From Desulfamplus sp. (GTDB taxonomy: Bacteria > Desulfobacterota > Desulfobacteria > Desulfobacterales > Desulfobacteraceae), in NCBI GenBank assembly GCA_015232555.1, contig JADFZJ010000019.1, positions 1 through 64,000 of the forward strand: a DNA stretch of 64,000 nucleotides, read 5' to 3'. This document shows positions 20,764 to 48,790 of the stretch, in pieces; the stretch's first letter is position 1, and the number at the start of each line of letters is the position of its first letter. The notes under the pieces are model-generated. The model was not told where the DNA came from and searched no databases. It saw nothing but the letters and a program-made list of their open reading frames with translations. A program made the position numbers and the translations under genes.

Positions 20764-22575
20764 TCATTTATCATCAATCTTTTTAAAACAGATCCTCTCA
20801 AACCCCAAAGCCACCACCACAAATTTATGCAGCCTTAAATTGCCATATTTCTCTTCAAGATGCTTTCCATACTCTCCCGCCTGTTTTATGGCATCTTCCA
20901 ACTGCTCAATAATTTGTGGGATTATGCCTAACTCCTCTTCAGTCAGATTTTTTGCCTGCTCACCAGTCATATTGACATCTTTTAGATGCACAAACTTAAA
21001 TTCAATCAGCACATCAAGGATTTTTCCGTGCCGTTTATCTGGACGAATAATCATGGTCAAATCAGCGTATCTGCGGTCAATTTCAGGTTCTGAATCCATG
21101 ATATAGAGCAGATCGTTATAAAGCAAAGTTAAAAATGCTGTCTTGACAGTAAGTTCGTTTGCCCAGCGGTAATCGCGGTTTGCAAACACCTTGAAATACT
21201 TGTCTTCAACAAATTTGCACAAAGGTTCAATATTACCTTTGCTCCATAACTGCCTTGCAGCCTCTTTGCCATTATCTCTATCATCCGGCATCGGCAGAAA
21301 CATCTTGCAGATTCTATCAACATAAAGTCCTTTCATTACAAGATTAGGCACTCTCAAAACAGTTTGTAAATCTTCTGTATCTGACGCAATTGTAAGCACT
21401 CCAAAGTAATATAAAAATGAGACAAGAAAGGTAAGATCTTGAGATGAATCAATTAACATATCCTGAATTCCAAAACGGTCTTGGATTTCAGCAATAACAA
21501 CCTCTTGATTTTTCTCCATTAGAGTTAAAAGAAGGTCTCTTCCTTTTGGGAGGCGGGCAATATATTCAAGTTTAGATTCATCTGTTGCAAGGTTTGCATC
21601 AAGCATTTTTCTTGGATATTCGCAGTATTCCTGAAAATATTTAAAGAAATAAACGCAGAGAGTTGGATTATAAATATATTGTTTAGTCTTATAACAAAAT
21701 TTGTAACCGTTATAATAAGTTTTCATCAACTCAACAGCTTCGCTAACTTTACTTTTTTCCCAACTGCATTGTTCAATGATCTCCTGAATCACAGACTGAA
21801 CTTCTGCTTGAGTGAAACCACACAAATCATTAAATTTAGGAACAAAATAGATGTTTTCAGCAACATTATAGCCGCTTGTAATATCCGCCATAACCACAGG
21901 CGAAACACCAGTTATAAAAACGCGGTCAAACATAGTTGACGTGGTTAATGCCTTGACAGTTTTAAAAAATGTCCGCAATGGTCCCTGCTCATGCACTAAA
22001 GATTGGTATCTTTGACCATGTTCCCCAAACCCTTTATCCAACATTTGCACTCCCATCATTACGGTATTGGCAAAATTGTCGTATTCATCAATCAGAAGAT
22101 ATATTGGGTATGACGTTGCTGCGGCGGCCTTTGCTAAGGATTGGAGAGAGTATAAAGCATCGTTATGGTTAATTTCACTTGCTGGCAATTCAAAACCGTT
22201 AAATTTATAGTAAGTGGAAAATCCTTCAATACATACATTTATATGGTTAAACAACGATTGCCGAATATCATCAGCCGTACCAGTCGGATCAACGCACGAA
22301 AAATCAAGTTTTAAGATAAAGTAGGAGTTTCTAAGCGGCGTGGGATTTTTGCCAATTTTAAGATGTCCAAATAGTTGGTCAAATTCTTCTTTTTTCGCAA
22401 CATCGTAGTAGTTCTCAAGCATTGACAGCAAAAGAGACTTACCAAATCTGCGAGGACGGATAAAAAGTTGTGATTTTGAACCTTCAAGCAGAGGGATTTT
22501 GTCTGTTCGGTCAATGTAAAAAGAGCCTTCATTAATCATGCCTCTAAAGTCGCTTGAACCGTAAGCAAATTTCAT
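20764..22575 (-). CDS. AAA-ATPase/PD-(D/E)XK nuclease-like protein (PF09820/PF08011 type), intact copy
   Basis: Encodes 603 residues. The N-terminus MKFAYGSSDFRGMINEG is followed by Walker A in RPRRFGKSLLLSML (about 40-53), Walker B YLLIDEYDNF (about 157-166) and a sensor-like FITGVSP. The C-terminal part has a nuclease-like core: ADLTMIIRPD, then LIEFKFV providing ExK. These proteins are abundant in anaerobes and gut bacteria; the function is not established and a defence or mobile-element role is only suspected. AGGAGG lies 5 nt before the start. A disrupted paralogue lies at 26636-28320, on the other side of the restriction-modification genes. Confidence 0.85.
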   Translation of the reverse strand: MKFAYGSSDFRGMINEGSFYIDRTDKIPLLEGSKSQLFIRPRRFGKSLLLSMLENYYDVAKKEEFDQLFGHLKIGKNPTPLRNSYFILKLDFSCVDPTGTADDIRQSLFNHINVCIEGFSTYYKFNGFELPASEINHNDALYSLQSLAKAAAATSYPIYLLIDEYDNFANTVMMGVQMLDKGFGEHGQRYQSLVHEQGPLRTFFKTVKALTTSTMFDRVFITGVSPVVMADITSGYNVAENIYFVPKFNDLCGFTQAEVQSVIQEIIEQCSWEKSKVSEAVELMKTYYNGYKFCYKTKQYIYNPTLCVYFFKYFQEYCEYPRKMLDANLATDESKLEYIARLPKGRDLLLTLMEKNQEVVIAEIQDRFGIQDMLIDSSQDLTFLVSFLYYFGVLTIASDTEDLQTVLRVPNLVMKGLYVDRICKMFLPMPDDRDNGKEAARQLWSKGNIEPLCKFVEDKYFKVFANRDYRWANELTVKTAFLTLLYNDLLYIMDSEPEIDRRYADLTMIIRPDKRHGKILDVLIEFKFVHLKDVNMTGEQAKNLTEEELGIIPQIIEQLEDAIKQAGEYGKHLEEKYGNLRLHKFVVVALGFERICFKKIDDK

Positions 22576-26635: not shown

Positions 26636-28320
26636 TTAAATCAATTGCCTAAAACAACCCCTCTCAAACCCCAAAGCCACAACCACAAACTTATGCAGCC
26701 TTAAATTGCCATATTTCTCTTCAAGATGCTTTCCATACTCTGACACCTGTTTTCTGGCATCTTCTAACTGCTCAATAATTTGAGGAATTTTATAAAGTTC
26801 ATCTTCTTTTAAAGCCTTTGCATGCCCGCCTGTCATGTTCACATCTTTTAGAGCCACAAACTTAAACTCAATCAATACATCAAAGATTTTGCCGTGCCGC
26901 TTGTCTGGACGAATAATCATGGTTAAATCAGCGTATCTGCGGTCAATTTCAGGCTCTGAATCCATGATATAGAGCAGATCGTTATAAAGCAGAGTCAGAA
27001 AAGCGGTCTTGACAGTCAATTCGTTTACCCAGCGGTAATCTCGGTTTGCAAACACCTTGAAATAATTCCTTTCATTACAAGATTCGGAACCTTTAAGATG
27101 CTTTGTAAATCCTCCGTATGATCTTCCATTGTCAAAACCCCGAAATAATAAAGGAATGAGACCAAAAAAGCGTGGTCTTTTGAAGCATCATCAAGCATCT
27201 CTTGAATTCCAAATCTTTTGCTTATAGCTGGAACAACTATCTGCTGATTCTCATCCATCAAACTCAATAAAAGTTCCTGTCCCTTTGGGATTTTTGCTAT
27301 GTATTCAAGTTTTGACTCATCAACTGCAAGGTTGTCATCAAGCATTTCAAACGGATATTCGCAGTATTCTTGAAATCCGTCCCAAAAATATAGGCAGAGA
27401 GTAGGATTGTATATGTAATCCTCTGCTTTATAGCTGAATCTATAACCATTATAATATGTTCTCATCAGCTCAACAGCCTCTTTAATCTTACTCTCTTTAA
27501 ACTTGCATGATTCAACAATCTGCCTTATCACATCTTCAACCTCACTATGTGTGAAACCACACAATGCATTAAATTCATCTTTAAAATATATGTTCTTTGC
27601 AACATTATATCCGCTTGTAATATCGCTCATAACCACAGGCGACACACCAGTTATAAACACACGGTCAAACATGGTTGATGTGGTTAATGCCTTAACTGTT
27701 TTGAAAAATGTCCGAAGCGGTCCCTGTTCGTGAACTAAAGATTGATAACGCTGATTATGCGTGTCTCTGCCATAATCTCTATCAAGGATCTGAATCCCCA
27801 TCATTACTGTGTTTGCAAAATTGTCGTATTCGTCAATTAATAGATATATTGGATATGGGGTTGCTTTAACAGACTCAGCTAAAGATTGAAGAGAAAACAA
27901 GGCATTCTCATAATTTATGGTGATTTTGGGAATCTCAAAACCTTTATATTTATACCATCTCTCAAACCCTTCTATCATGACATTTATGTGATCAAACATA
28001 GATTGACGAATCTGCTCAACCGTGCCAGTTGGATCAACGCACGAAAAATCAAGTTTTAGGATAAAGTAGGAGTTTCTAAGCTCTGTTGGATTTCTGCCGA
28101 TTGCAAGATGTCCAAACAGTTTCTCAAACTCATCTTTTTTGGAGACATCGTAATAATTTTCAAGCATGGAGAGCAAAAGAGATTTGCCAAATCTGCGGGG
28201 ACGGATAAAAAGCTGGGATTTTGAACCTTCTAAAAGAGGTATTTTGTCTGTTCTGTCAATATAAAAAGAGCCTTCTTTAATCATGCCTCTAAAATCGCTT
28301 GAGCCGTAAGCAAATTTCAT
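26636..28320 (-). pseudogene. Disrupted AAA-ATPase/PD-(D/E)XK paralogue (127-bp deletion)
   Basis: The first fragment (28320 to about 27065) matches the intact copy at 20764-22575 closely from MKFAYGSSDFRGM through VPNLVMKG. The second fragment resumes at YFKVFANRDYRW in another frame and ends ALGFERGCFRQLI. Comparing the nucleotides, the intact gene has 129 nt between AAAGGA and TATTTCAAGG where this copy has 2, so about 127 nt are missing and the frame shifts. Walker A (RPRRFGKSLL), Walker B (LLIDEYDNF) and the C-terminal EFKFV motif are all still encoded, so the break is recent. The start is the ATG at 28320 after TTGGAGG. Confidence 0.88.
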
Positions 28321-28337
28321 AATCAACCTCCAAGGTG

Positions 28338-28366
28338 AATAGTTCACTTATTTTTAGTGAACTATT
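28338..28366. promoter_or_regulatory. 11-bp inverted repeat upstream of the AAA pseudogene
   Basis: AATAGTTCACT (28338-28348) and AGTGAACTATT (28356-28366) are perfect inverted repeats just upstream of the ribosome site for the start at 28320. Position and symmetry suit an operator or a leader hairpin. The intact paralogue lacks this sequence. Confidence 0.45.
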
Positions 28367-30867: not shown

Positions 30868-33800
30868 ATGACAGTTGAGAGCGAAAAAAATATAGCGGAC
30901 GCGTTCAAAAAAGAGGAAGAATCCTTCATATTTTTAGATACATTAGGAAAACGCTGGCCTAAACTTCGACTGATTATGTTGGTTTTCGGTCTAATTTTGT
31001 TTATCTCTTTGACTCTATTTGCACAGACACTGTTTGTTCCATCAGAGTTTAAACTTCCGTTGGCAGTGCAGCAAATTAAGACCAGATTAAAGGCTTTGCA
31101 AAATAATCAAGAGTCAATTAAAAATATTGTAACACTGCCATTATGGCTGAATTTCGATAAGTCTAACATCGGGGGAAAATTAAATATTGGTCAAACGGAA
31201 AAGACAGATTCAATTCTATCAGGAAACTCCGATGGTAGTAATCAGGCGGTAACCGCTTTGGTGCCCCATAAAAAAAAATACTCTGATTTTCCTGTTGATA
31301 AGGAGATAAGACTTGGATTTTATGAAAACTGGGATCCTGACAGCCTTGATTCTCTAAAGGCAAATGCAGACAAGCTGACCCACCTTTGTCCTGACTGGAT
31401 AAGCCTTGTAAATGGGCGTGGAAAGTTTAAAGTAGTAAAGGAAAAAGAGATCCTTGATATAGTGCAAGAACACGGAATTGTGCTGCTTCCCCTGCTCAAC
31501 AATATGTCTCACCTTGGCAACTGGTCGCCTGATATAGTGGAAGGATTACTCAACGGGAATGAAGTTTACCAGAATCAATTCATTGAGGAGCTTATTGCAC
31601 AGCTAAAGGAGATGGAGGCTGGCGGCACAATATTTGATTTTGAAGATGTTGATCCCTTTTATCGGGATAGCATGACAGCCTTTCTGGTAAAAGTTGCTTC
31701 TGCCCTTCATAATCAAGAGATGGAATTATGGCTTTGTGTGCCAATGGGCAAACAGCTTAAACTTTTCGATCTTGATACATTAGCAGAGCATGTTGATCGA
31801 TTTGTTGCCATGCTGCATGACCAAAATGGTGAGTTCGATTTACCAGGTCCCATTGCATCACAGGAGTGGTTCAATGGCTGGTTTAACGCCCTTGTTGATG
31901 ATTATGCAGAGCCTTTTCAGTGGGTTATAGCACTTGGCTCCTATGGCTATGACTGGGCTGATGGTAAAAAAGAGGCTGACCATCTCAGCTTTGAAGATGT
32001 TATGAGTCGGGCATTTCGTTCATCTCTTGAATCCTGCGAATTTGATAATCGAACTATGAACCCTCATTTTTTATATCAAGACGAAGGGGTTGCTCATACT
32101 GTCTGGTTTTTAGACGCAATAACATTTTTTAACCAGCTAAAAGCAGGAAGGGAGCACCATCTCGGAGGCATTGCCATATCGCGTTTGGGGACAGAAGACC
32201 CCGGTATCTGGCATGTTCTAAACTTGGATGTTACAAAGCCGCTTTCTAAAAATGATCTGGAACTGCTTGAGATAATCAAACCCGGAGATTCGGTAGCCAA
32301 TATATCCAAAGGCAATTTCCTCAGCCTTGAGGACAAACATTCTGACGGCAAGCGGCACATTACTGATATCACCGCAGCAAAAGAGGGATTGGACAACCAT
32401 AGTAAGGCGGAAGGAGTGGAGAGCCTTACAGCAAGGGTAGGAGTGATGACTGAACGGTATGAAAAATTTCCAAGTTATACCACCATTATTCATAAAGATA
32501 GTGTGGTAAAAGATGCAGTTACTATAACCTTTGATGACGGTCCTGACTCAGATTGGACGCCTCCACTACTTGATATACTTAAAGAAAAAGGTGTAAAAGC
32601 CACATTCTTTATGGTCGGTGCCAAAATGGAAGATCATCCAGATATTGTCAGAAGAATCGTCCGCGAAGGTCATACTGTCGGTGTTCATACATATACTCAT
32701 CCCAATATTGCACTTGTTTCCGAAGAGCGGGCTAACTTGGAGTTCAATGCTACCCAGCGTTTAATTGAGGCAATTACTGGTCATTCAACAATTTTGTTCC
32801 GTCCCCCTTACAATGCTGACACAAATCCTCGTGAACTTGAAGAGCTTGTGCCTATCAAGATAGCTCAGGATATGGGATATATCACAGTAAGCGAAGATAT
32901 TGACACTGAAGACTGGGATCGTCCCGGGGTGGAGGCTATGGTTGAGCGGGTCAAAGAGGGGCGTTTGATGGGGGGAAATATAGTGCTTTTGCATGATTCT
33001 GGTGGAGATCGAAGTCAGACTGTTGAGGCATTGCCTGAAATAATCGATTACTTAAGGGTTCGCGGTGACACCATTATCTCTTTGCCCGAAATGCTGGGCG
33101 TTCCATCAGAACAGCTTATGCCCATAGTGCCTAAAAATCAGCATTCAATCGTAAGGGCAATCAGCGGCTGGGGATTCACGATAATACACAACGTTACTAA
33201 TTTTTTCTGGGCATTTATGATAGTGGCTACATCGTTAGTTGTTTTGCGGACCTTGATTGTGGCGTTTTTGGCAATTAGAAACAAGCGGCAAGATATAGTA
33301 TTTCAGATAAATAAATTGGCAATTCATAAGCCCGCCCCCCTTGCCTCTGTATTTTCTCCGCCTGTGAGTGTTCTAATCGCTGCTTACAACGAGGATAAAG
33401 TGATCCACGAGACTCTAAAGGCGTTATTAGCAAGTAGCTATGCAGGCGAAATAGAGATTGTATTGGTTGATGATGGCTCAAAGGATAATACAGCACAAAT
33501 AGTTGAGGTAATGGCGAGTAGCGACAATAGAATCCGTCTTATTAGGCAGTTAAACTACGGTAAAGCCACAGCTTTGAAGAATGGGTTTAATGCCGCAAGC
33601 CATGAAATTGTAGTAACTCTTGATGCTGATACTCAATTTGAGCCAAATACAATTTACGAGCTTGTCTCTCCTCTTGCTGATCCGTCAGTAGGTGCTGTTT
33701 CAGGACGGGCAAAGGTTGGTAATACAAAGACGATGGTCGCCCGTTTTCAATCCCTTGAATACACCTGCGGGTTTAATTTAGATCGCAGAGCCTATCATCA

Positions 33801-35538
33801 ATTAAACTGCATTACCGTGGTTCCTGGTGCAGTCAGTGCTTTTAGAAAAAGTGCAGTAACTGCTGCTGGCGGAATAAGCACAGATACATTGGCTGAAGAC
33901 ACAGACCTCACTTTGAGCATGCACAAGAGTGGCTTTAAGGTGCATTACGCCTCTAAAGCCGTTGCATGGACAGAGGCACCTGAAACAATATTTGCTTTTT
34001 CCAAACAACGTTTCAGGTGGGCGTTTGGAACTTTGCAGTGTCTTTGGAAACACAGAGATATGCTCTTTGACTCAAATTTCGGGGCACTTGGGTGGTTTAG
34101 CCTTCCAAGTGCATGGTTTTTCAATATCTTTCTTGTAGCACTCGGACCTATTATTGACGCTATTTTGCTCTTTTCTCTTATAATAAGTCCTGCCAACTTA
34201 CTTCTATATTTTTATTTCGGCATCTTTTTGTTATCTGACCTGCTGCTTGCTGGAGTTGCCTGTAGGATTGAGGATGAACCACTCGCTCAAATCAAGCTCG
34301 TGGTGCCGATGCGATTTATCTACAGACCAGTATTAAGTTATGCAGTGGCAAGGGCAATTATCAAAGCTGCAAAAGGTGTGTGGGTAGGTTGGGGCAAACT
34401 TGATAGAACAGCTTCGGTAACTTATGATAAAATTATTAAGACTAATATATTGATTCTATTCTGCACCCTTTCTCTTAGTCTCTTTGCAATTGGCTGCCAA
34501 GATAATAAACCAGTTGCTGTTAAAGATGAGGGACCTGTAGAATTCGTGATGCCAGATAAAGGTGCTTATAATGGTGCTTATGTTGATTTTGGTGATGGTG
34601 AGAGCAATGTAACCTATGACGCATTAACCGACTTTGACAAAATGATCGGCAAACACCTTGCAGTAGTTGCCTTTGGTAATTTCTGGGGAGATCAGGAGTT
34701 TCCCCTGAAAACGGTCAGGATTGTCTCGGGATATGGAGCTGTTCCGCTGATCTTTTGGTCGCCGTGGGATAAACCATACGTGGAAAACAGAGGACCCGAC
34801 AGGTTTAATCTGCCAGATATTCTTGCTGGAAAGTGGGACAGCTACATTGATAAATGGGCAGAAGCCGCTCGACAGTATGACAAACCCCTTATGATAGCGT
34901 GGGGTATTGAGATGAACGGCTCTTGGTTTCCATGGTCAGGTAGAGATTATGGCGGAGGTGAGGTCATAGGAGAGAAAAATGGTAAGCCTATTTATAAAGG
35001 TCCAGAACTTGTAAAAAAGGCATACCGTTATGTGGTGGATCGAGTAAGAGCTAAGAGGGCAGATAATATAATATGGGGTTTTCATGCCAATAATTTCAGT
35101 GCCCCACAAGAGTCATGGAATGAGATTGCCAACTATTATCCCGGGTCAGATTATGTAGATTGGCTTGGCTTAAGTGTATATGGAAAAATGGGCAGGTATG
35201 ATGATTGGGCGTTATTTCATGAAGCCATGGACAGAGGCTATGAAGATATATGCAAGTTAGATTCTGTAAAACCCGTGATTGTAGCAGAGTGGGGAGTGGG
35301 AGAGTTTCCAAATAACGACAAGGCTGAGTTTATAACTTTAGCCTTCTCTGACATGAAAACTAAATACAAGAGAGTGCGTGCCGCTGTTTACTGGCATGAA
35401 CGGTGGGAAAATAAAGACGGAAGCTACAGTAATCTTCATGTGAACTCTTCGCCAAAAGCCCTTGATGCTTACCAGAGTGGTGTAGCTGATCCATACTGGA
35501 TTGGCATACCACAATTTCGTAAACGCAGCAGCAAATAA
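30868..35538 (+). CDS. Four-module polysaccharide protein: GH18-like, NodB deacetylase, GT2 synthase, GH26-like
   Basis: Encodes 1556 residues. TM1 spans about 33-56. A GH18-like barrel follows (about 140-460; acid in FDFEDVD). A NodB deacetylase follows (TFDDGP at 554-559, then HTYTHP, RPPYNAD and LLHDSGG). Then comes a processive GT2 domain (SVLIAAYNED at about 831, VDDGS, DADT, EDTD and QRFRW at 1047-1051) with several helices. After these a classical lipoprotein-like signal, ILILFCTLSLSLFAIGC with Cys1210, precedes a GH26-like domain (acid Glu in AWGIEMNGSW; nucleophile candidate in VAEWGVGE). The first three modules are a known combination suggesting synthesis and deacetylation of a beta-linked amino-sugar polymer; the GH26-like addition is unusual. 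Substrate is inferred, not shown. It could be a fusion of two former genes. Confidence 0.9.
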   Translation: MTVESEKNIADAFKKEEESFIFLDTLGKRWPKLRLIMLVFGLILFISLTLFAQTLFVPSEFKLPLAVQQIKTRLKALQNNQESIKNIVTLPLWLNFDKSNIGGKLNIGQTEKTDSILSGNSDGSNQAVTALVPHKKKYSDFPVDKEIRLGFYENWDPDSLDSLKANADKLTHLCPDWISLVNGRGKFKVVKEKEILDIVQEHGIVLLPLLNNMSHLGNWSPDIVEGLLNGNEVYQNQFIEELIAQLKEMEAGGTIFDFEDVDPFYRDSMTAFLVKVASALHNQEMELWLCVPMGKQLKLFDLDTLAEHVDRFVAMLHDQNGEFDLPGPIASQEWFNGWFNALVDDYAEPFQWVIALGSYGYDWADGKKEADHLSFEDVMSRAFRSSLESCEFDNRTMNPHFLYQDEGVAHTVWFLDAITFFNQLKAGREHHLGGIAISRLGTEDPGIWHVLNLDVTKPLSKNDLELLEIIKPGDSVANISKGNFLSLEDKHSDGKRHITDITAAKEGLDNHSKAEGVESLTARVGVMTERYEKFPSYTTIIHKDSVVKDAVTITFDDGPDSDWTPPLLDILKEKGVKATFFMVGAKMEDHPDIVRRIVREGHTVGVHTYTHPNIALVSEERANLEFNATQRLIEAITGHSTILFRPPYNADTNPRELEELVPIKIAQDMGYITVSEDIDTEDWDRPGVEAMVERVKEGRLMGGNIVLLHDSGGDRSQTVEALPEIIDYLRVRGDTIISLPEMLGVPSEQLMPIVPKNQHSIVRAISGWGFTIIHNVTNFFWAFMIVATSLVVLRTLIVAFLAIRNKRQDIVFQINKLAIHKPAPLASVFSPPVSVLIAAYNEDKVIHETLKALLASSYAGEIEIVLVDDGSKDNTAQIVEVMASSDNRIRLIRQLNYGKATALKNGFNAASHEIVVTLDADTQFEPNTIYELVSPLADPSVGAVSGRAKVGNTKTMVARFQSLEYTCGFNLDRRAYHQLNCITVVPGAVSAFRKSAVTAAGGISTDTLAEDTDLTLSMHKSGFKVHYASKAVAWTEAPETIFAFSKQRFRWAFGTLQCLWKHRDMLFDSNFGALGWFSLPSAWFFNIFLVALGPIIDAILLFSLIISPANLLLYFYFGIFLLSDLLLAGVACRIEDEPLAQIKLVVPMRFIYRPVLSYAVARAIIKAAKGVWVGWGKLDRTASVTYDKIIKTNILILFCTLSLSLFAIGCQDNKPVAVKDEGPVEFVMPDKGAYNGAYVDFGDGESNVTYDALTDFDKMIGKHLAVVAFGNFWGDQEFPLKTVRIVSGYGAVPLIFWSPWDKPYVENRGPDRFNLPDILAGKWDSYIDKWAEAARQYDKPLMIAWGIEMNGSWFPWSGRDYGGGEVIGEKNGKPIYKGPELVKKAYRYVVDRVRAKRADNIIWGFHANNFSAPQESWNEIANYYPGSDYVDWLGLSVYGKMGRYDDWALFHEAMDRGYEDICKLDSVKPVIVAEWGVGEFPNNDKAEFITLAFSDMKTKYKRVRAAVYWHERWENKDGSYSNLHVNSSPKALDAYQSGVADPYWIGIPQFRKRSSK

Positions 35539-38869: not shown

Positions 38870-40864
38870 ATGAAAGCGTTGATCCTTGCTGCTGGATTTG
38901 GCACGCGCCTTTTGCCACATACTTCTGTGATACCAAAACCGCTTTTTACACTAAATAGAGTCTCTGTTTTACAACGGTGTATAGAAAAGCTAATTGAGGC
39001 TGGGTTCACAGATATCATAATAAATACGCACCATCTTCACCATCAGATTGAGCAGTTTATTGGTAAATATAAAGCTGAAAACTGCTTCACTGTCCCTGTC
39101 AATATCAATACTATCTATGAACCAGAGATTCTTGATACAGGCGGAGCAATAAGAAATGTGTACAATTTTATGGGAAACGACCATTTTATTGTTATCAATA
39201 GTGATATTGTCTCTGATATCAACCTTAAAAGAGTGTGGGAGTTTCACCTTGCTGGAGATTGGGCTGCAACTCTTGTGCTTCATGATTGCCCAGTCTACAA
39301 TAAAATTGCTGTTAATAAGGAACTTTTTATCAAAAGTTTTTCTGCTGATAGTAAGTTATTAAACTTCTCAGATGCGTATGAGCCTTTGTTCAATAAAGCG
39401 TTAGCATTTACAGGCGTTCAAGTTCTCTCTCCTAAGATTTTTGATTATATATTTAACAGCAATAATAAGAGTACAAAATCTCCACTTTTATCAGCCTCTT
39501 TGCCATTTGACACAGCCCATTTTAGCAGCATTGATCTTTACTCTTACCTTGCAGATCAGGGGAATTTAGTAAAAGCGTTTATATGCAAAGATATTTTCTG
39601 GCAGGATATTGGCACCTCTGAAGCATACCGAGATGTTGCAATAAGATTTGCAGTAGCTAACTATTTAGAGGGAAATGACTATTTAAAGGCAACTTCATAT
39701 AATAAAAATCACACCATTACAGACAGAACGAATATAAAAAATATCAAAGATATTGTGATTGAAAAACTTGCTGGAGACGGCTCAGACAGAGGATGGTTTC
39801 GCTGTAGTCGGTTTGGTACCTCTGAGCTTTCTGTTATCGTTGCGGATCATGGTATTCATCATCATAAAAATAAAATTGAAGAGATTGACTCGTTTATAGA
39901 AATTGGTAACCACCTATTAAAACAAGGTATTTCTGTTCCTAAAATCAAAGACTATGATAGATTTGCTGGCTTGGTTGTGCTTGAAGATTTGGGAGATGCT
40001 CATCTTGCAAATGTTATCCAAAACATTCACAGCAGCGAAGATAAGAGCAATGAAAAAAGAATTGATGCTGACACTCAATTCAGTCAACCACTAATTCTTG
40101 ATTATTACAAAAAATTATGCCGCCTTGCTATAGATTTTTCCATAAAAGGGATAGATGGTTTCAATGATCAGTGGGCATTTCAAACTAAATCATACTCAAA
40201 GGAGATGATTCTTGAAAAAGAGTGTCTCTATTTTGTTGAAGCATTTCTTCAAGGTTATATGAAATTAGATGTAAAATTTGATGAGTTTATTGATGAGTTT
40301 GAATTTATTGCAGATAGTGCTCTTGATGGTGCTTTTCAAGGGTTAATGCACAGAGATATGCAGTCAAGAAATATCATGGTTAAAGGCGGGGAAAATCTGT
40401 TAAAAAACCCCAATTTATCAACCAATGAAAAATATTTAAAAGATGAAAATTTCTTTTTTATTGATTTCCAATCTGCCAGAAGAGGACCGCTTCAATACGA
40501 TCTTGCCTCTTTATTAATTGATCCTTACGTGAATCTTGCAGATAATATAAAAGAGACCATTTTGTATGAGTGCATAAATGAGCTTAACAATAGACTTAAA
40601 CTAATAAATAAAGATACTTGTATCAAAAACAGATGGACTGACAATTATGAGCATAATCCTGAAAAATTTATAAAATGTTTCAGATATTGCTCACTTACCC
40701 GTAATATGCAGATGTTGGGAGCATTTGCTAATCTGTCAATTAATAAAGGTAAAAACTTTTTTAAGCAGTATATTCCCATAGCAGTAGAAAATCTAAAAAA
40801 GAACATTAATCATGTAGATAAAAATAGGATAACACGCCTTTACAGCTGCATAACAAAACTTTAA
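38870..40864 (+). CDS. MurU-AmgK-like fusion: nucleotidyltransferase plus sugar kinase
   Basis: Encodes 664 residues. The N-terminal domain (about 1-260) is a sugar-nucleotide pyrophosphorylase: LILAAGFGTRLLPHT with the GXGTRXXP signature and Lys in VIPKPLF, then VINSDIVSD. The C-terminal domain (about 285-640) is an aminoglycoside-phosphotransferase fold: GDGSDRGWFR, catalytic LMHRDMQSRNIMV and metal-binding FFIDFQSARRGPLQYDLASL. In Pseudomonas, AmgK phosphorylates MurNAc at C1 and MurU converts it to UDP-MurNAc; here both would lie on one chain. A polar insert (NIHSSEDKSNEKRIDADTQF) interrupts the kinase N-lobe. Substrate assignment rests on family analogy. Confidence 0.85.
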   Translation: MKALILAAGFGTRLLPHTSVIPKPLFTLNRVSVLQRCIEKLIEAGFTDIIINTHHLHHQIEQFIGKYKAENCFTVPVNINTIYEPEILDTGGAIRNVYNFMGNDHFIVINSDIVSDINLKRVWEFHLAGDWAATLVLHDCPVYNKIAVNKELFIKSFSADSKLLNFSDAYEPLFNKALAFTGVQVLSPKIFDYIFNSNNKSTKSPLLSASLPFDTAHFSSIDLYSYLADQGNLVKAFICKDIFWQDIGTSEAYRDVAIRFAVANYLEGNDYLKATSYNKNHTITDRTNIKNIKDIVIEKLAGDGSDRGWFRCSRFGTSELSVIVADHGIHHHKNKIEEIDSFIEIGNHLLKQGISVPKIKDYDRFAGLVVLEDLGDAHLANVIQNIHSSEDKSNEKRIDADTQFSQPLILDYYKKLCRLAIDFSIKGIDGFNDQWAFQTKSYSKEMILEKECLYFVEAFLQGYMKLDVKFDEFIDEFEFIADSALDGAFQGLMHRDMQSRNIMVKGGENLLKNPNLSTNEKYLKDENFFFIDFQSARRGPLQYDLASLLIDPYVNLADNIKETILYECINELNNRLKLINKDTCIKNRWTDNYEHNPEKFIKCFRYCSLTRNMQMLGAFANLSINKGKNFFKQYIPIAVENLKKNINHVDKNRITRLYSCITKL

Positions 40865-43971: not shown

Positions 43972-44222
43972 TTTTATTTAATCTCCTTATATTATTATTG
44001 ATTGCCTTTACATTATATTCATTAACAAATATATCTATTGACAAAGAAAAACATGAGTGTTTTAGATCAAAATAGAATAAAATGCAAACAAGGTTAAAGA
44101 AAATAGATATTTATTGGAAGATATTATTATGTTTTTATTCAGGAATTTCAATCCAACAATAATTGCAGCTAAGCTACTTATTTTCTTTAGTATTTTGATA
44201 TTTTTTTAAATTGGAGATAAAC

Positions 44223-45899
44223 ATGATTTCTTTTATTAACAAAAGCATTACAATCAAAATAGTTACGGTGCAACTCTTTATAATAGTTCTGTTTTTTCTC
44301 TGTTTGTATCTTTTTAATATAAAAAGTCAAGCTGCCTTTACAATTTGTGCTTCTCTATTCTCTTTGTCTATGATTTTATCCACAGTTATTACGATAAAAT
44401 TTATACTGCTAAATCCAATCAAAGAGATATCTTTAGCTCTTAAAGATACTGCTGAAGGAGAAGGAGATTTAACTAAAAGGCTTCATGTTGCAAGAATAGA
44501 CGAAATAGGCGGTCTCCCAGGCTCTTTTAATGCTTTTATCAGCAGAATGAACAATATAATTGTTGATATAAGCCAGAACGCCCAGACTGTAACTGCTGCG
44601 TCTGCTGAAGTGCTATCTGTTGCAGAGCAGATGTCAGAAGATTCTGAAGATTTATCAATGAGGGCAAATACAGTCGCTGCAGCGTCTGAAGAGATGAGTG
44701 CAAATATGGGTTCTGTTGCAGCAGCAAGCGAACAATCTTCAACTAATCTTAGTATTGTTGCTACATCAGCAAGTGAGATGAAAGCAACTCTTAACGAAGT
44801 TGCTCAAAGCTGTTCAAGAGCAAGAGTTATCTCTGAAAAAGCGACATTAAATGTTGAGACTGCATCTAAAAAGGTGCAACTACTTGGAGAGGCTGCAAGA
44901 GAGATATCCAAAATCACAGAAGTTATTACAGAGATTGCAGCTCAAACGAATCTTCTTGCCCTGAATGCTACAATTGAAGCTGCAAGAGCTGGAGAGGCTG
45001 GTAAAGGTTTTGCAGTTGTTGCAAGCGAGATCAAACAGCTTGCAACTCAGACCACAAACGCAACTTATGATATAAGAAACAAGGTAACTGGTATCCAAAC
45101 TTCTACAGATGAAACTGTCTCAGAGGTTGGCAATATCTCTGAGGTTATTGTTGAGGTAAATGATATTGTTGCAACTATCGCAGCAGCTATAGAGGAGCAG
45201 TCAGCAGCAGCAACAGAAGTTTCTGATAATATCCAGCAGGCGTCCCAAGGAATAGCAGAGGTAAATGAAAATGTGGCACAAACATCTGAAGTTTCTGTTC
45301 AGATTGCAAAGGATATTCATGTTGTTCACAATGTTTCAGAAACGATGTCGCAAAAAAGCGGTCAGATGAATATTAGTGCAAAAGATCTTTCAGAACTATC
45401 ATATAAATTGAAAGATATGATAAGCGTCTTTAAAGTCTCGGCAGACCATCTTACTAACGACAAAAATAGAAAAGAAGCTGGTCAAACACAGATATCTGAT
45501 CTCATCACATGGGGACCAAAACTTACCACAGGTATTGAGCAGATTGATGTGCAGCACAAGGAGCTTGTAAGAATGGTAAATGAGCTTCATAAAGCTATGA
45601 AACTCAAAACAGGCATACAACAATCAGGAGCTATACTTGACAGCCTTGCACAATATACAGTTTACCATTTTGGACATGAGGAGAAGCTCTTTAAGCAGTA
45701 TCAATATCAAGAGTATGACGAACATAAGAAAATTCACGAAAATCTTGTATCAACAGTTGTTGCATTTCAAAAGGATTTTAAAAGCGGCAAGGCATCTCTA
45801 TCAGTTGATCTTATGAATTTTCTGACCCAATGGTTAAAAGATCATATAATGAAGTGCGATATGAAATATGTGCCGTTTTTTAAAAGTAAGGGCTTGTAA
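44223..45899 (+). CDS. Methyl-accepting chemotaxis protein with C-terminal hemerythrin
   Basis: Encodes 558 residues from the ATG at 44223 with GGAG 6 nt upstream. Two close N-terminal membrane helices (about 10-60) leave almost no periplasmic part. HAMP (about 60-110) and the signalling domain follow, with hairpin tip [20 protein letters not shown] bacteriohemerythrin domain ends the protein: [43 protein letters not shown] and the [10 protein letters not shown] ligand pair, giving the expected His/Glu/Asp diiron ligands. It should sense oxygen (or redox) in the cytoplasm and drive aerotaxis, fitting an anaerobe or microaerophile. A weak TTGACA (44038-44043) lies upstream. No che genes are adjacent. 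Confidence 0.95.
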
Positions 45900-47078: not shown

Positions 47079-47457
47079 TAAGATCATACCACCAAAAATC
47101 ATTAGATTCCACTGGATCAAGGGTTAAGGCTCTTCCATCAGTTTGAGAAACAGCCTCAGAAATACGGCTTTCATCTCTTCCGCACCTTATCAAGCGGTCA
47201 CAGGTCATAATCCAGCCTATGAAAAAACCGTGCTTTTTAAATGCCTCTTCACCATAACTTGAACATGATGGGGACATGCCGCAACGGTCTCCATCAACTG
47301 GTGATATATATGATTTGTAAAACATAAATAAACCATTCGCTGAATCTTTTGGTTGAGATTTTTGCAATTCTGACTCAGCCTTAACAGATAGAGAAGTTAA
47401 AAATATTGATAAAAATATAAAAGATATAAATATCATAAGGTTATATTTTATCATCAC
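47065..47457 (-). CDS. YidD-like membrane insertion efficiency factor with signal segment
   Basis: Encodes 130 residues. The YidD core MFYKSYISPVDGDRCGMSPS, CSSYGEEAFKKHG and a closing RLIRCGRDE match PF01809, including the conserved Cys residues. Usual YidD is about 70-90 residues with a short amphipathic start. This one adds an N-terminal hydrophobic segment of about 20 residues (IFISFIFLSIFLTSL) ending near VKAES, so it is probably exported or anchored. The downstream TPR gene overlaps its end. A role in membrane protein insertion is thus doubtful; a periplasmic derivative is likely. Confidence 0.82.
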   Translation of the reverse strand: MMIKYNLMIFISFIFLSIFLTSLSVKAESELQKSQPKDSANGLFMFYKSYISPVDGDRCGMSPSCSSYGEEAFKKHGFFIGWIMTCDRLIRCGRDESRISEAVSQTDGRALTLDPVESNDFWWYDLNGSN

Positions 47458-47500
47458 AATATTAGTCCTATATCACAGGTTATCGTAAAGTTCAACGGGG

Positions 47501-47558
47501 CAGCCCGAAGGCGACCACCAACGCAGATTTAGACACAAAACCACACGCCGTAGGGCTG
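47501..47558. repeat. Imperfect inverted repeat CAGCCC...GGGCTG
   Basis: CAGCCCGAAGGCG (47501-47513) and CGCCGTAGGGCTG (47546-47558) pair with two mismatches around a 32-nt loop. Base content is GC-rich against AT-rich surroundings. It lies just upstream of a transposase remnant, so it may be an element end or a dispersed palindrome. Confidence 0.5.
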
Positions 47559-47589
47559 TATCGGGTAATTACAAATAAAGGAACTACTC

Positions 47590-47811
47590 ATGAAAAATAA
47601 TACATATTTGCTTTCATTACAAAAACAATTTGAAAATATTGGTTTGGATTCTGACATCAATCAAGCACTGCGGGAATTGAAACTCAGCAGTATGTTGAGA
47701 CAATCCAAAATTTTGAAGCAAAAAGGTTACAGCACATCTCTACTTATCTATTTTATGATACTACTGACATTTATAAAAAGAACTCTGTGTTCTTTTTGGA
47801 CAACAAACTGA
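47590..47811 (+). pseudogene. Truncated IS4-like transposase N-terminus
   Basis: Encodes 73 residues ending prematurely. The segment LRQSKILKQKGYSTSLLIYF followed by MILLTFIKRTLCSFW resembles the N-terminus of IS4-type transposases (a helical lead-in before the DDE domain). No DDE motif follows; the rest is absent or scrambled. The first residues (MKNNTYLLSLQKQFENIGLD) look like a transposase leader. Assignment is by family memory only. The stretch 47812-48134 shows no recognisable gene on either strand; a minus-strand frame at 47761-47949 is unrecognised. Confidence 0.5.
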
Positions 47812-48004
47812 AGCACAAGACCAGGGTTCTACATATTCAGGAATAGATTTAGCCTGAACCACCGATAATCTCACTTTAACGCCGGCTTCTGTTTGAAGTT
47901 CTTGAAGCAAATTAACCGAAGGAAACTGATGTAGCGAAAATTCGCTCACATTTCACTATATATTCAAAATTTAAGGCTTTTGCTTGGTCGATATGGAAAA
48001 TGGT

Positions 48005-48067
48005 GAGGTGAAAAATGTTTTTACCAGATAAGCTATGAAGGTAGCTGTTAAAAACATTTTTCACCTC
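48005..48067. repeat. 19-bp perfect inverted repeat (long hairpin)
   Basis: GAGGTGAAAAATGTTTTTA (48005-48023) is exactly complementary to 48049-48067. The 25-nt loop holds a second small hairpin, AGCTA/TAGCT. It lies between the transposase remnant and the unrecognised minus-strand gene at 48135. No T-tract of terminator type follows on the + strand. Confidence 0.8.
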
Positions 48068-48134
48068 AAAATTGGGAGAGGAGAGGGTGTAAAGAATATA
48101 TACAACTTCATGGATGGTGCACCAGATGTGTATA

Positions 48135-48557
48135 TTATCCCCCAAGAAATTGATTGGTTATCTTGTGTATGCAGTGGTAGATATCCTCGTCACTGCCGTA
48201 TATATCAATTACATCCTTGTGGTTGATGAGCTTTTCCACGATAAATGCTGTAATATAGAGCGAAACTATATTGGGATTTTGGACAATTGTTCTGAAAGGG
48301 GCTACCTGAAAATCAATATCAAAATCCTCAGCTCTGCAAAGAGTCTCGACACATCTTGCAATCTGTTCTTGTATAGAGTTCTTGCTTACTGTTTCAACAA
48401 GTCCATCTTCTACAAGTTTCATAGAGACTTTATTGCTGAACATATCGACATTATCCCTTATCACTTGAATAGAGCGGTATCTCTCTCTCTCTTTTGATGA
48501 CTCAATTTTTGACAGTATCGTTGCTTCCCTGTTTCCAACATGAAATGTTTTGCCCAT
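48135..48557 (-). CDS. Hypothetical protein of 140 residues, not recognised
   Basis: Encodes 140 residues, mostly helical by composition. Charged N-terminus MGKTFHVGNREATILSKIES and RERYRSIQVIRDNVDMF lead to hydrophobic VSLYITAFIVEKLINHKDVI near the C-terminus. No membrane segment or signal peptide is evident. I do not recognise a family. The frame is complete, with AAGGACAG upstream of the ATG, and the next gene (surA-like) diverges. It may be a real lineage-specific gene next to a mobile-element scar. Confidence 0.55.
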   Translation of the reverse strand: MGKTFHVGNREATILSKIESSKERERYRSIQVIRDNVDMFSNKVSMKLVEDGLVETVSKNSIQEQIARCVETLCRAEDFDIDFQVAPFRTIVQNPNIVSLYITAFIVEKLINHKDVIDIYGSDEDIYHCIHKITNQFLGG

Positions 48558-48790
48558 AAAATCTGTCCTTAAAATATTATTTTAAAAAAAACTTGAAGTT
48601 CACAAAGGTTAAGTTCAACTAATGGTTGGATTATAAACGTAAACAATAGGTTGTTTCAAGCTAAAAATCGTTTGAGTTCAATAAATATCGCTTGAAAGAG
48701 CGGGCAGTGCATGTTAGAAATTGAACCTTTCAATAAAATATCTTAGTAAAAAAAGAATTCAACAATAAATCTATATACAAAGGAATGCTG

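Follow-up and report, generated by a model that had tools for sequence, protein, structure and literature searches.

A Desulfamplus open frame joining a GH18-NodB-GT2 synthase to a GH26 lipoprotein: very probably a run-on of two conserved neighbouring genes

The window analysed here, a 64,000-nucleotide stretch of a Desulfamplus sp. contig, contains one open frame in which a polysaccharide synthase and a GH26 lipoprotein form a single chain. This frame very probably represents a conserved two-gene cassette (synthase plus GH26 lipoprotein) that has been run together here by a small and recent change at the gene boundary, and the single chain is probably an accident limited to a single genome or assembly, arising by mutation or by assembly error. 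The conserved pair is the real unit of interest: it would be a variant of a synthase-plus-hydrolase system and is compact enough for direct expression and testing. The case is a caution too: an apparent fusion that stands out in a single assembly may be no more than two ordinary adjacent genes read through.

Features of the open frame

The frame has no internal stop codon and encodes 1556 residues (Table 1); it lies in a genome of 3.82 Mb (106 contigs, assembly 96% complete). The initial annotation, made from the letters of the sequence, had described a single 1556-residue frame with NodB, GT2 and GH26-like motifs, a GH18-like module and an internal lipoprotein signal, and these descriptions were borne out. 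The chain contains TFDDGP (residues 554–559), HTYTHP (607–612), VDDGS (867–871), DADT (919–922), EDTD (1010–1013), QRFRW (1047–1051), GIEMNGSW and AEWGVGE; conservation in relatives shows that these motifs are far from chance. Pfam supports the deacetylase (Polysacc_deac_1, residues 547–650, E 2.8e-35), GT2 (Glyco_tranf_2_3, residues 831–1054, E 1.6e-36) and GH26 (Glyco_hydro_26, residues 1327–1447, 44.2 bits against a cut-off of 20.2) assignments, all three being above the Pfam cut-offs. The GH18-like module is supported by its predicted fold and by a profile search that retrieved GH18 chains from the PDB, the part called GH26-like is assigned to GH26 by both the family search and structure prediction, and the lipoprotein signal is supported by a lipobox pattern match and by hydropathy.

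Table 1. Features of the open frame and their positions in the window
Feature	Residues	Position	Strand	Evidence
Whole open frame (synthase and GH26 lipoprotein as one chain)	1–1556	30868..35538	+	
N-terminal transmembrane segment	33–51	30964..31020	+	Hydropathy 2.54
GH18-like module	about 140–480	31285..32307	+	Profile match, AF2 model, Foldseek
GH18 catalytic Glu position	E259	31642..31644	+	Aligned with DFE of 5jh8
NodB/CE4 deacetylase	547–742	32506..33093	+	Pfam, NCBIfam, invariant residues
Transmembrane segment ahead of GT2	785–803	33220..33276	+	Hydropathy 2.47
GT2 synthase domain	831–1054	33358..34029	+	Pfam, invariant residues
Hydrophobic region past GT2	1074–1130	34087..34257	+	Hydropathy
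Conserved synthase end, RTASVTY	1180–1186	34405..34425	+	24/40 relatives stop two residues later
+1-frame ATG, candidate former GH26 start		34424..34426	+	Located just ahead of the signal helix
Lipoprotein signal h-region and lipobox	ends at Cys1210	34441..34497	+	Lipobox pattern, hydropathy 2.00
GH26 domain	1211–1556	34498..35535	+	Pfam, CtLic26A matches, AF2
GH26 catalytic Glu	E1348	34909..34911	+	Invariant 41/41; aligned with HEANG of 2bv9
GH26 catalytic Glu	E1474	35287..35289	+	Invariant 41/41; aligned with AEF of 2bv9

Relatives encode two separate genes

Thirty-five loci with a relative of the GH26 part came out of a scan that took one genome for each species. Both genes are visible at 27 of them, as separate neighbours in the same order. 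At L025, L036, L041, L043 and L046 the contig stops at the locus or close to it, and at L028, L037 and L044 the DNA upstream gave no synthase match. Eleven of the two-gene loci are labelled Desulfobulbaceae, Desulfobulbus or Desulfocapsaceae, 13 carry only the label Deltaproteobacteria or Proteobacteria, and the remaining 3 are verrucomicrobial; locus L034 belongs to the cultured Desulfobulbus elongatus DSM 2908. A search at E 1e-40 of 395 genomes of the phylum, drawn evenly from a larger group, detected the GH26 part in 18 genomes, the window genome counted. The 18 matches outside the window genome lie in open frames of 371–641 amino acids, all too short to include the synthase, and 14 of these matches adjoin a synthase encoded as a separate gene.

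Forty gene pairs were inspected at their junctions (37 distinct junctions, as three pairs duplicate another; L073, apparently the same as L022, was excluded). A stop codon lies between the synthase and GH26 genes in every pair, and all three relative frames are used (19, 14 and 7 pairs). The first candidate GH26 start is located 10–20 bases past the synthase stop in 22 pairs, and in the remaining pairs it overlaps this stop or lies 2 to 114 bases off. A single GH18-NodB-GT2-GH26 chain was found in none of the 40 pairs and was seen only in the window. Because a separate stop and a separate GH26 gene are present in all 40 pairs, the four-module chain is not conserved, and a conserved four-module enzyme was rejected as an explanation. 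The suggestion of an originally independent, secreted GH26 lipoprotein agrees well with this arrangement, whereas the proposed four-module synthase machine is not supported: what related genomes have in place of the same four-module order is a separate neighbouring GH26 gene, the very result that the annotation had named as contradicting it. The broader idea of a machine that makes, deacetylates and trims one polymer is still plausible for the gene pair, and the fusion that it had included is unneeded.

The pairwise distances among the synthases and among the GH26 proteins are strongly correlated, with an r of 0.97 over 26 sequences that includes shared species history. Pairing of the two genes was found in two phyla. 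The other neighbours of the pair vary and include, by sequence inspection, G6PD-, P-type ATPase-, exonuclease- and Edd-like genes; a conserved third gene was rejected, since the next most shared neighbour cluster occurs in only 8 of the 31 stretches compared.

Some loci show individual peculiarities. On the contig of L044, which is labelled Bacillota, there are two tandem GH26 relatives and no synthase match in 13 kb. In genome G129, the synthase and GH26 genes are located on different contigs (L091 and L093), and genome G179 contains a second, more distant GH26 copy (L089).

The junction in the window

In 24 of the 40 relatives the synthase ends with RTAS(V/I)(T/P/S)Y, two further residues and a stop, and it is at this place that the window continues. 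Twelve further synthases stop 1–13 residues past an RTASV-like motif, and the ends of the other four (L080, L082, L085 and L086) are off the common motif. In the window, GKLDRTASVTY is followed by DKIIKTN and then by ILILFCTLSLSLFAIGC, which reads as a normal lipoprotein signal. Within the junction region the lipobox pattern is matched once, with Cys1210 as its last residue; in its strict form it was also found in 31 of the 40 relatives, in at least one of which (L018) it falls at a different Cys. The fusion point is a natural gene boundary, at which the natural end of the synthase is joined to the natural signal of the lipoprotein.

The +1-frame ATG at 34424 suggests the position of the former lipoprotein start. 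An ATG in this frame within 8 codons would arise by chance in roughly one in four cases in such AT-rich DNA (a hand estimate), and the ATG, weak evidence when taken alone, could be due to chance. Given the natural ends at the joint and this ATG, a length difference of one base would part the two frames; such a difference is the most economical reading of the junction, though not a proven one.

A chimeric assembly of unrelated loci was rejected because the same two genes adjoin in the same order in relatives; it is further countered by the same-genus genome G005, in which the same GPAT gene lies downstream of the GH26 gene. To judge the surrounding sequence, 43 other window proteins were searched against Pfam, three being without a family, and their intactness was assessed by domain matches. 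One gene, accounting for two of the 43 proteins, is plainly broken: the AAA-ATPase/PDDEXK_9 gene at 26636–28347 (minus strand), which lacks about 39 residues and has a frame change when compared with a 603-amino acid paralogue at 20764–22575. With one broken gene among the 43 proteins, there is no obvious sign of a high error rate at base level.

That the stop was lost in a true, fixed fusion, and that the 1556-residue chain is made with the signal helix serving as an extra anchor or being cleaved at Cys1210, appears unlikely. Such a fusion would fit the uninterrupted frame across the junction, the mostly intact domain content of the other searched window genes, and the intact helix and lipobox, with which export of the tail would still be possible. 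However, none of the 40 pairs in relatives is fused, the lipoprotein signal is still present at the joint, and the other-frame ATG suggests a former start. In addition, the numbers of Lys and Arg within 15 residues of the signal helix are 2 and 2 on its two sides; the direction of the helix is therefore undecided, and the topology that a fixed fusion needs gains no support. It is very improbable that the locus yields two products, namely the fused chain and a separate GH26 lipoprotein started at an internal TTG (34450) or reached by frameshifting from the ATG at 34424. Although both the in-frame TTG (residue 1195) and the +1 ATG are located upstream of the lipobox, initiation at the TTG would give a signal that spans 16 residues to the Cys and lacks any positive charge, and neither a canonical slippery heptamer nor a strong ribosome-binding site was seen by eye.

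The synthase half

No Pfam GH18 match was obtained with the window chain at E 0.01. A profile of 23 aligned N-terminal modules retrieved GH18 chains from the PDB (best E 4.6e-25), and the AF2 model of the module (pLDDT 88.7) adopts a GH18 fold, matching SleL and 5jh8 in Foldseek. The window retains the D-x-E of GH18 (D257 and E259), in which E259 would occupy the catalytic Glu position. In an alignment of 26 synthases (the window and 25 loci), this position is Glu in 16 and has been lost in 10, being Gln (9) or Gly (1) in L026, L027, L029–L035 and L038; both residues of the D-x-E are kept in 12 of the 26. The replacement may mark a hydrolase that is decaying within the synthase, and because the Glu is lost in 10 of 26 sequences, the GH18 module probably serves for binding in some members of the family. 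SleL-type GH18 (4s3k) and 5jh8 resemble the N-terminal module in fold but differ from this synthase family in that the latter has lost the catalytic Glu in these 10 members.

The deacetylase residues D556, D557, H607, H611, R645 and H709, presumably with the roles usual for the CE4 motif that they form, are invariant in all 26 synthases, as are D868, D919, D921, D1011 and QxxRW of the GT2 domain, which is of the processive type. The best NCBIfam match of the synthase is TIGR03937 (PgaC_IcaA), at 193.8 bits compared with a cut-off of 422.3.

The GH26 lipoprotein half

The AF2 model of the GH26 domain (pLDDT 91.4) is a TIM barrel, and both this model and the search profile were built on 30 sequences. 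The lichenase CtLic26A was nearest among known structures in the profile search (E 3.6e-58), was matched by the single-sequence search (E 1.7e-24) and was found by Foldseek (E 7.8e-27), where ranks 1–6 are GH26 lichenase entries and rank 7 is a construct whose chain is Endoglucanase H. Both catalytic glutamates are invariant in all 41 rows of an alignment that includes short and distant sequences; we take E1348 to be the acid/base and E1474 the nucleophile of GH26. CtLic26A (Endoglucanase H, PDB 2bv9) thus shares the GH26 fold and both glutamates with the present protein, whereas the two are only 28–29% identical, and the present GH26 is a predicted lipoprotein that is genetically linked to a synthase.

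Possible function of the gene pair

The hydropathy segments (residues 33–51, 785–803, 1074–1130 and 1192–1210) suggest a topology for the two products. The first gene would encode a membrane synthase with the GH18-like and NodB modules in the periplasm and GT2 in the cytoplasm; it would polymerize a chain of N-acetylhexosamine type, move this chain across the membrane and remove part of its acetyl groups. The second gene would encode a GH26 lipoprotein whose destination is probably the outer membrane and which would cleave the polymer or clear it away during export. In the window, the two frames would have been run together at their natural boundary by a mutation or an assembly error of small size and recent date; if the product is made as one chain, the signal helix could carry the GH26 part to the periplasm, with cleavage at the lipobox.

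A hydrolase of their own is found in several polymer systems that depend on a synthase. We propose that the GH26 lipoprotein may be the cognate hydrolase of the synthase polymer, with a role like that of the hydrolases in other synthase systems, because its pair of glutamates is invariant, the Glu of the GH18 module is lost in part of the family, the divergence of the two proteins is correlated and the other neighbours vary. An amino-sugar chain with partial deacetylation is one candidate for the polymer; a glucan or a mixed polymer would be another, given the lichenase kinship of GH26.

This kinship argues against the proposal in so far as the nearest solved GH26 structures are lichenases and include no amino-sugar hydrolase. 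It would instead fit a glucanase (lichenase) with a scavenging role, encoded beside the synthase but active on foreign glucan, a reading that we consider rather unlikely. Such a role would also be consistent with loci at which no synthase match was found in the flanking DNA examined (L028, L037 and L044) or in flanks of only about 1.5 kb (L003, L087, L088 and L089; the L003 flank is extended to about 4 kb by L093), but it is at odds with the pairing in two phyla amid varying neighbours and with the correlated divergence of synthase and GH26. If GH26 is the cognate hydrolase, a partner related to lichenase points to a polymer, or to a GH26 specificity, that is undescribed in the literature searched. 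The cognate-hydrolase proposal may be taken further, to a recurrent and undescribed exopolysaccharide system of Desulfobacterota and Verrucomicrobiota. There, a GH18-NodB-GT2 synthase complete in itself would be combined with a lichenase-like GH26 lipoprotein that has assumed the hydrolase role of the decaying GH18 module and acts on a mixed polymer or on an amino-sugar polymer with part of its acetyl groups removed, with the window encoding one processable chain; in this full form it is a tentative suggestion, to which we give a low probability.

Comparison with known systems

The pair resembles PgaB/PgaC of the pga (PNAG) system in having a GT2 synthase, a CE4 deacetylase and a hydrolase role. 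According to the available part of one source, PgaB combines a deacetylase with a GH153 hydrolase, and hydrolase roles in synthase systems are described for PgaB and BcsZ (PMC5933820). Unlike in pga, the hydrolase candidates here are a GH18-like module within the synthase and a separate GH26 protein. A search of the window genome (96% complete) with the PgaB model gave no match at E 0.001, and the PgaA model gave eight weak matches, the best of 29.2 bits against a cut-off of 366.65, seven of which fall within the first 219 of the 800 model positions. A classical pga locus was rejected on these grounds, with TIGR03937 under its cut-off, no PgaB and no PgaA over the cut-off.

Divergent Gram-negative PgaB clades include GT-deacetylase fusions and operons without detectable pgaA or pgaD, as stated in the accessible portion of PMC7112194. 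Because such GT fusions occur in these clades, the synthase half is of a known kind. Both there and here, a GT is joined to a PgaB-type deacetylase; unlike here, the accessible text mentions neither GH26 nor the present module order.

As given in the excerpted text of PMC13390465, WpsE is encoded by a GH26 gene in the wps-1 exopolysaccharide cluster of Actinoplanes missouriensis. It is similar to the present GH26 in sitting in an exopolysaccharide cluster, but that cluster is described there as a predicted Wzx/Wzy-type pathway, which is of another kind than a GH18-NodB-GT2 synthase (PMC13390465). In a paper that describes a mixed-linkage glucan synthase, the terms GH26 and deacetylase do not occur in the main text (PMC10374906). 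No description of a GH18-NodB-GT2 and GH26 pair was found in the literature searched, which consisted of titles and the starts of abstracts and included few subscription journals.

Nearest relatives and possible transfer

One close relative, genome G005 of the same genus, contains the end of a GH26 gene that is 81–82% identical over the last 51–52 residues and is followed by the GPAT gene also found in the window; its contig ends inside GH26, and the junction is outside its sequence. The GT2 region was not found at E 1e-30 in nine other genomes of the genus, several of them incomplete (52–98%). The closest full relatives share about 67% (synthase) and 72% (GH26) identity with the window and are labelled Deltaproteobacteria, Proteobacteria or, for L017, Desulfobulbaceae. 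The identity of GT2 is 61% in the best genome of the same order compared with 77–78% in L012, L014, L018, L019 and L045. The GC content at third codon positions is 0.380 in the fused frame compared with 0.285–0.351 in 11 other window genes. It is a reasonable inference that the gene pair was transferred from another deltaproteobacterial lineage.

Other features of the window and genome

A Poly_export protein is encoded on contig C44 of the window genome, with no tie to the synthase gene. Elsewhere in the window, the plus-strand gene at 38870–40864 encodes a 664-amino acid chain with an N-terminal nucleotidyltransferase match and a C-terminal APH-type kinase match, an arrangement that resembles a fusion of MurU and AmgK, proteins of cell wall recycling. 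A region of about 1.7 kb (47121–48784) is without an open frame of at least 150 amino acids. The plus-strand gene at 44211–45899 encodes a chemotaxis receptor (HAMP and MCP signal domains) with a C-terminal hemerythrin domain.
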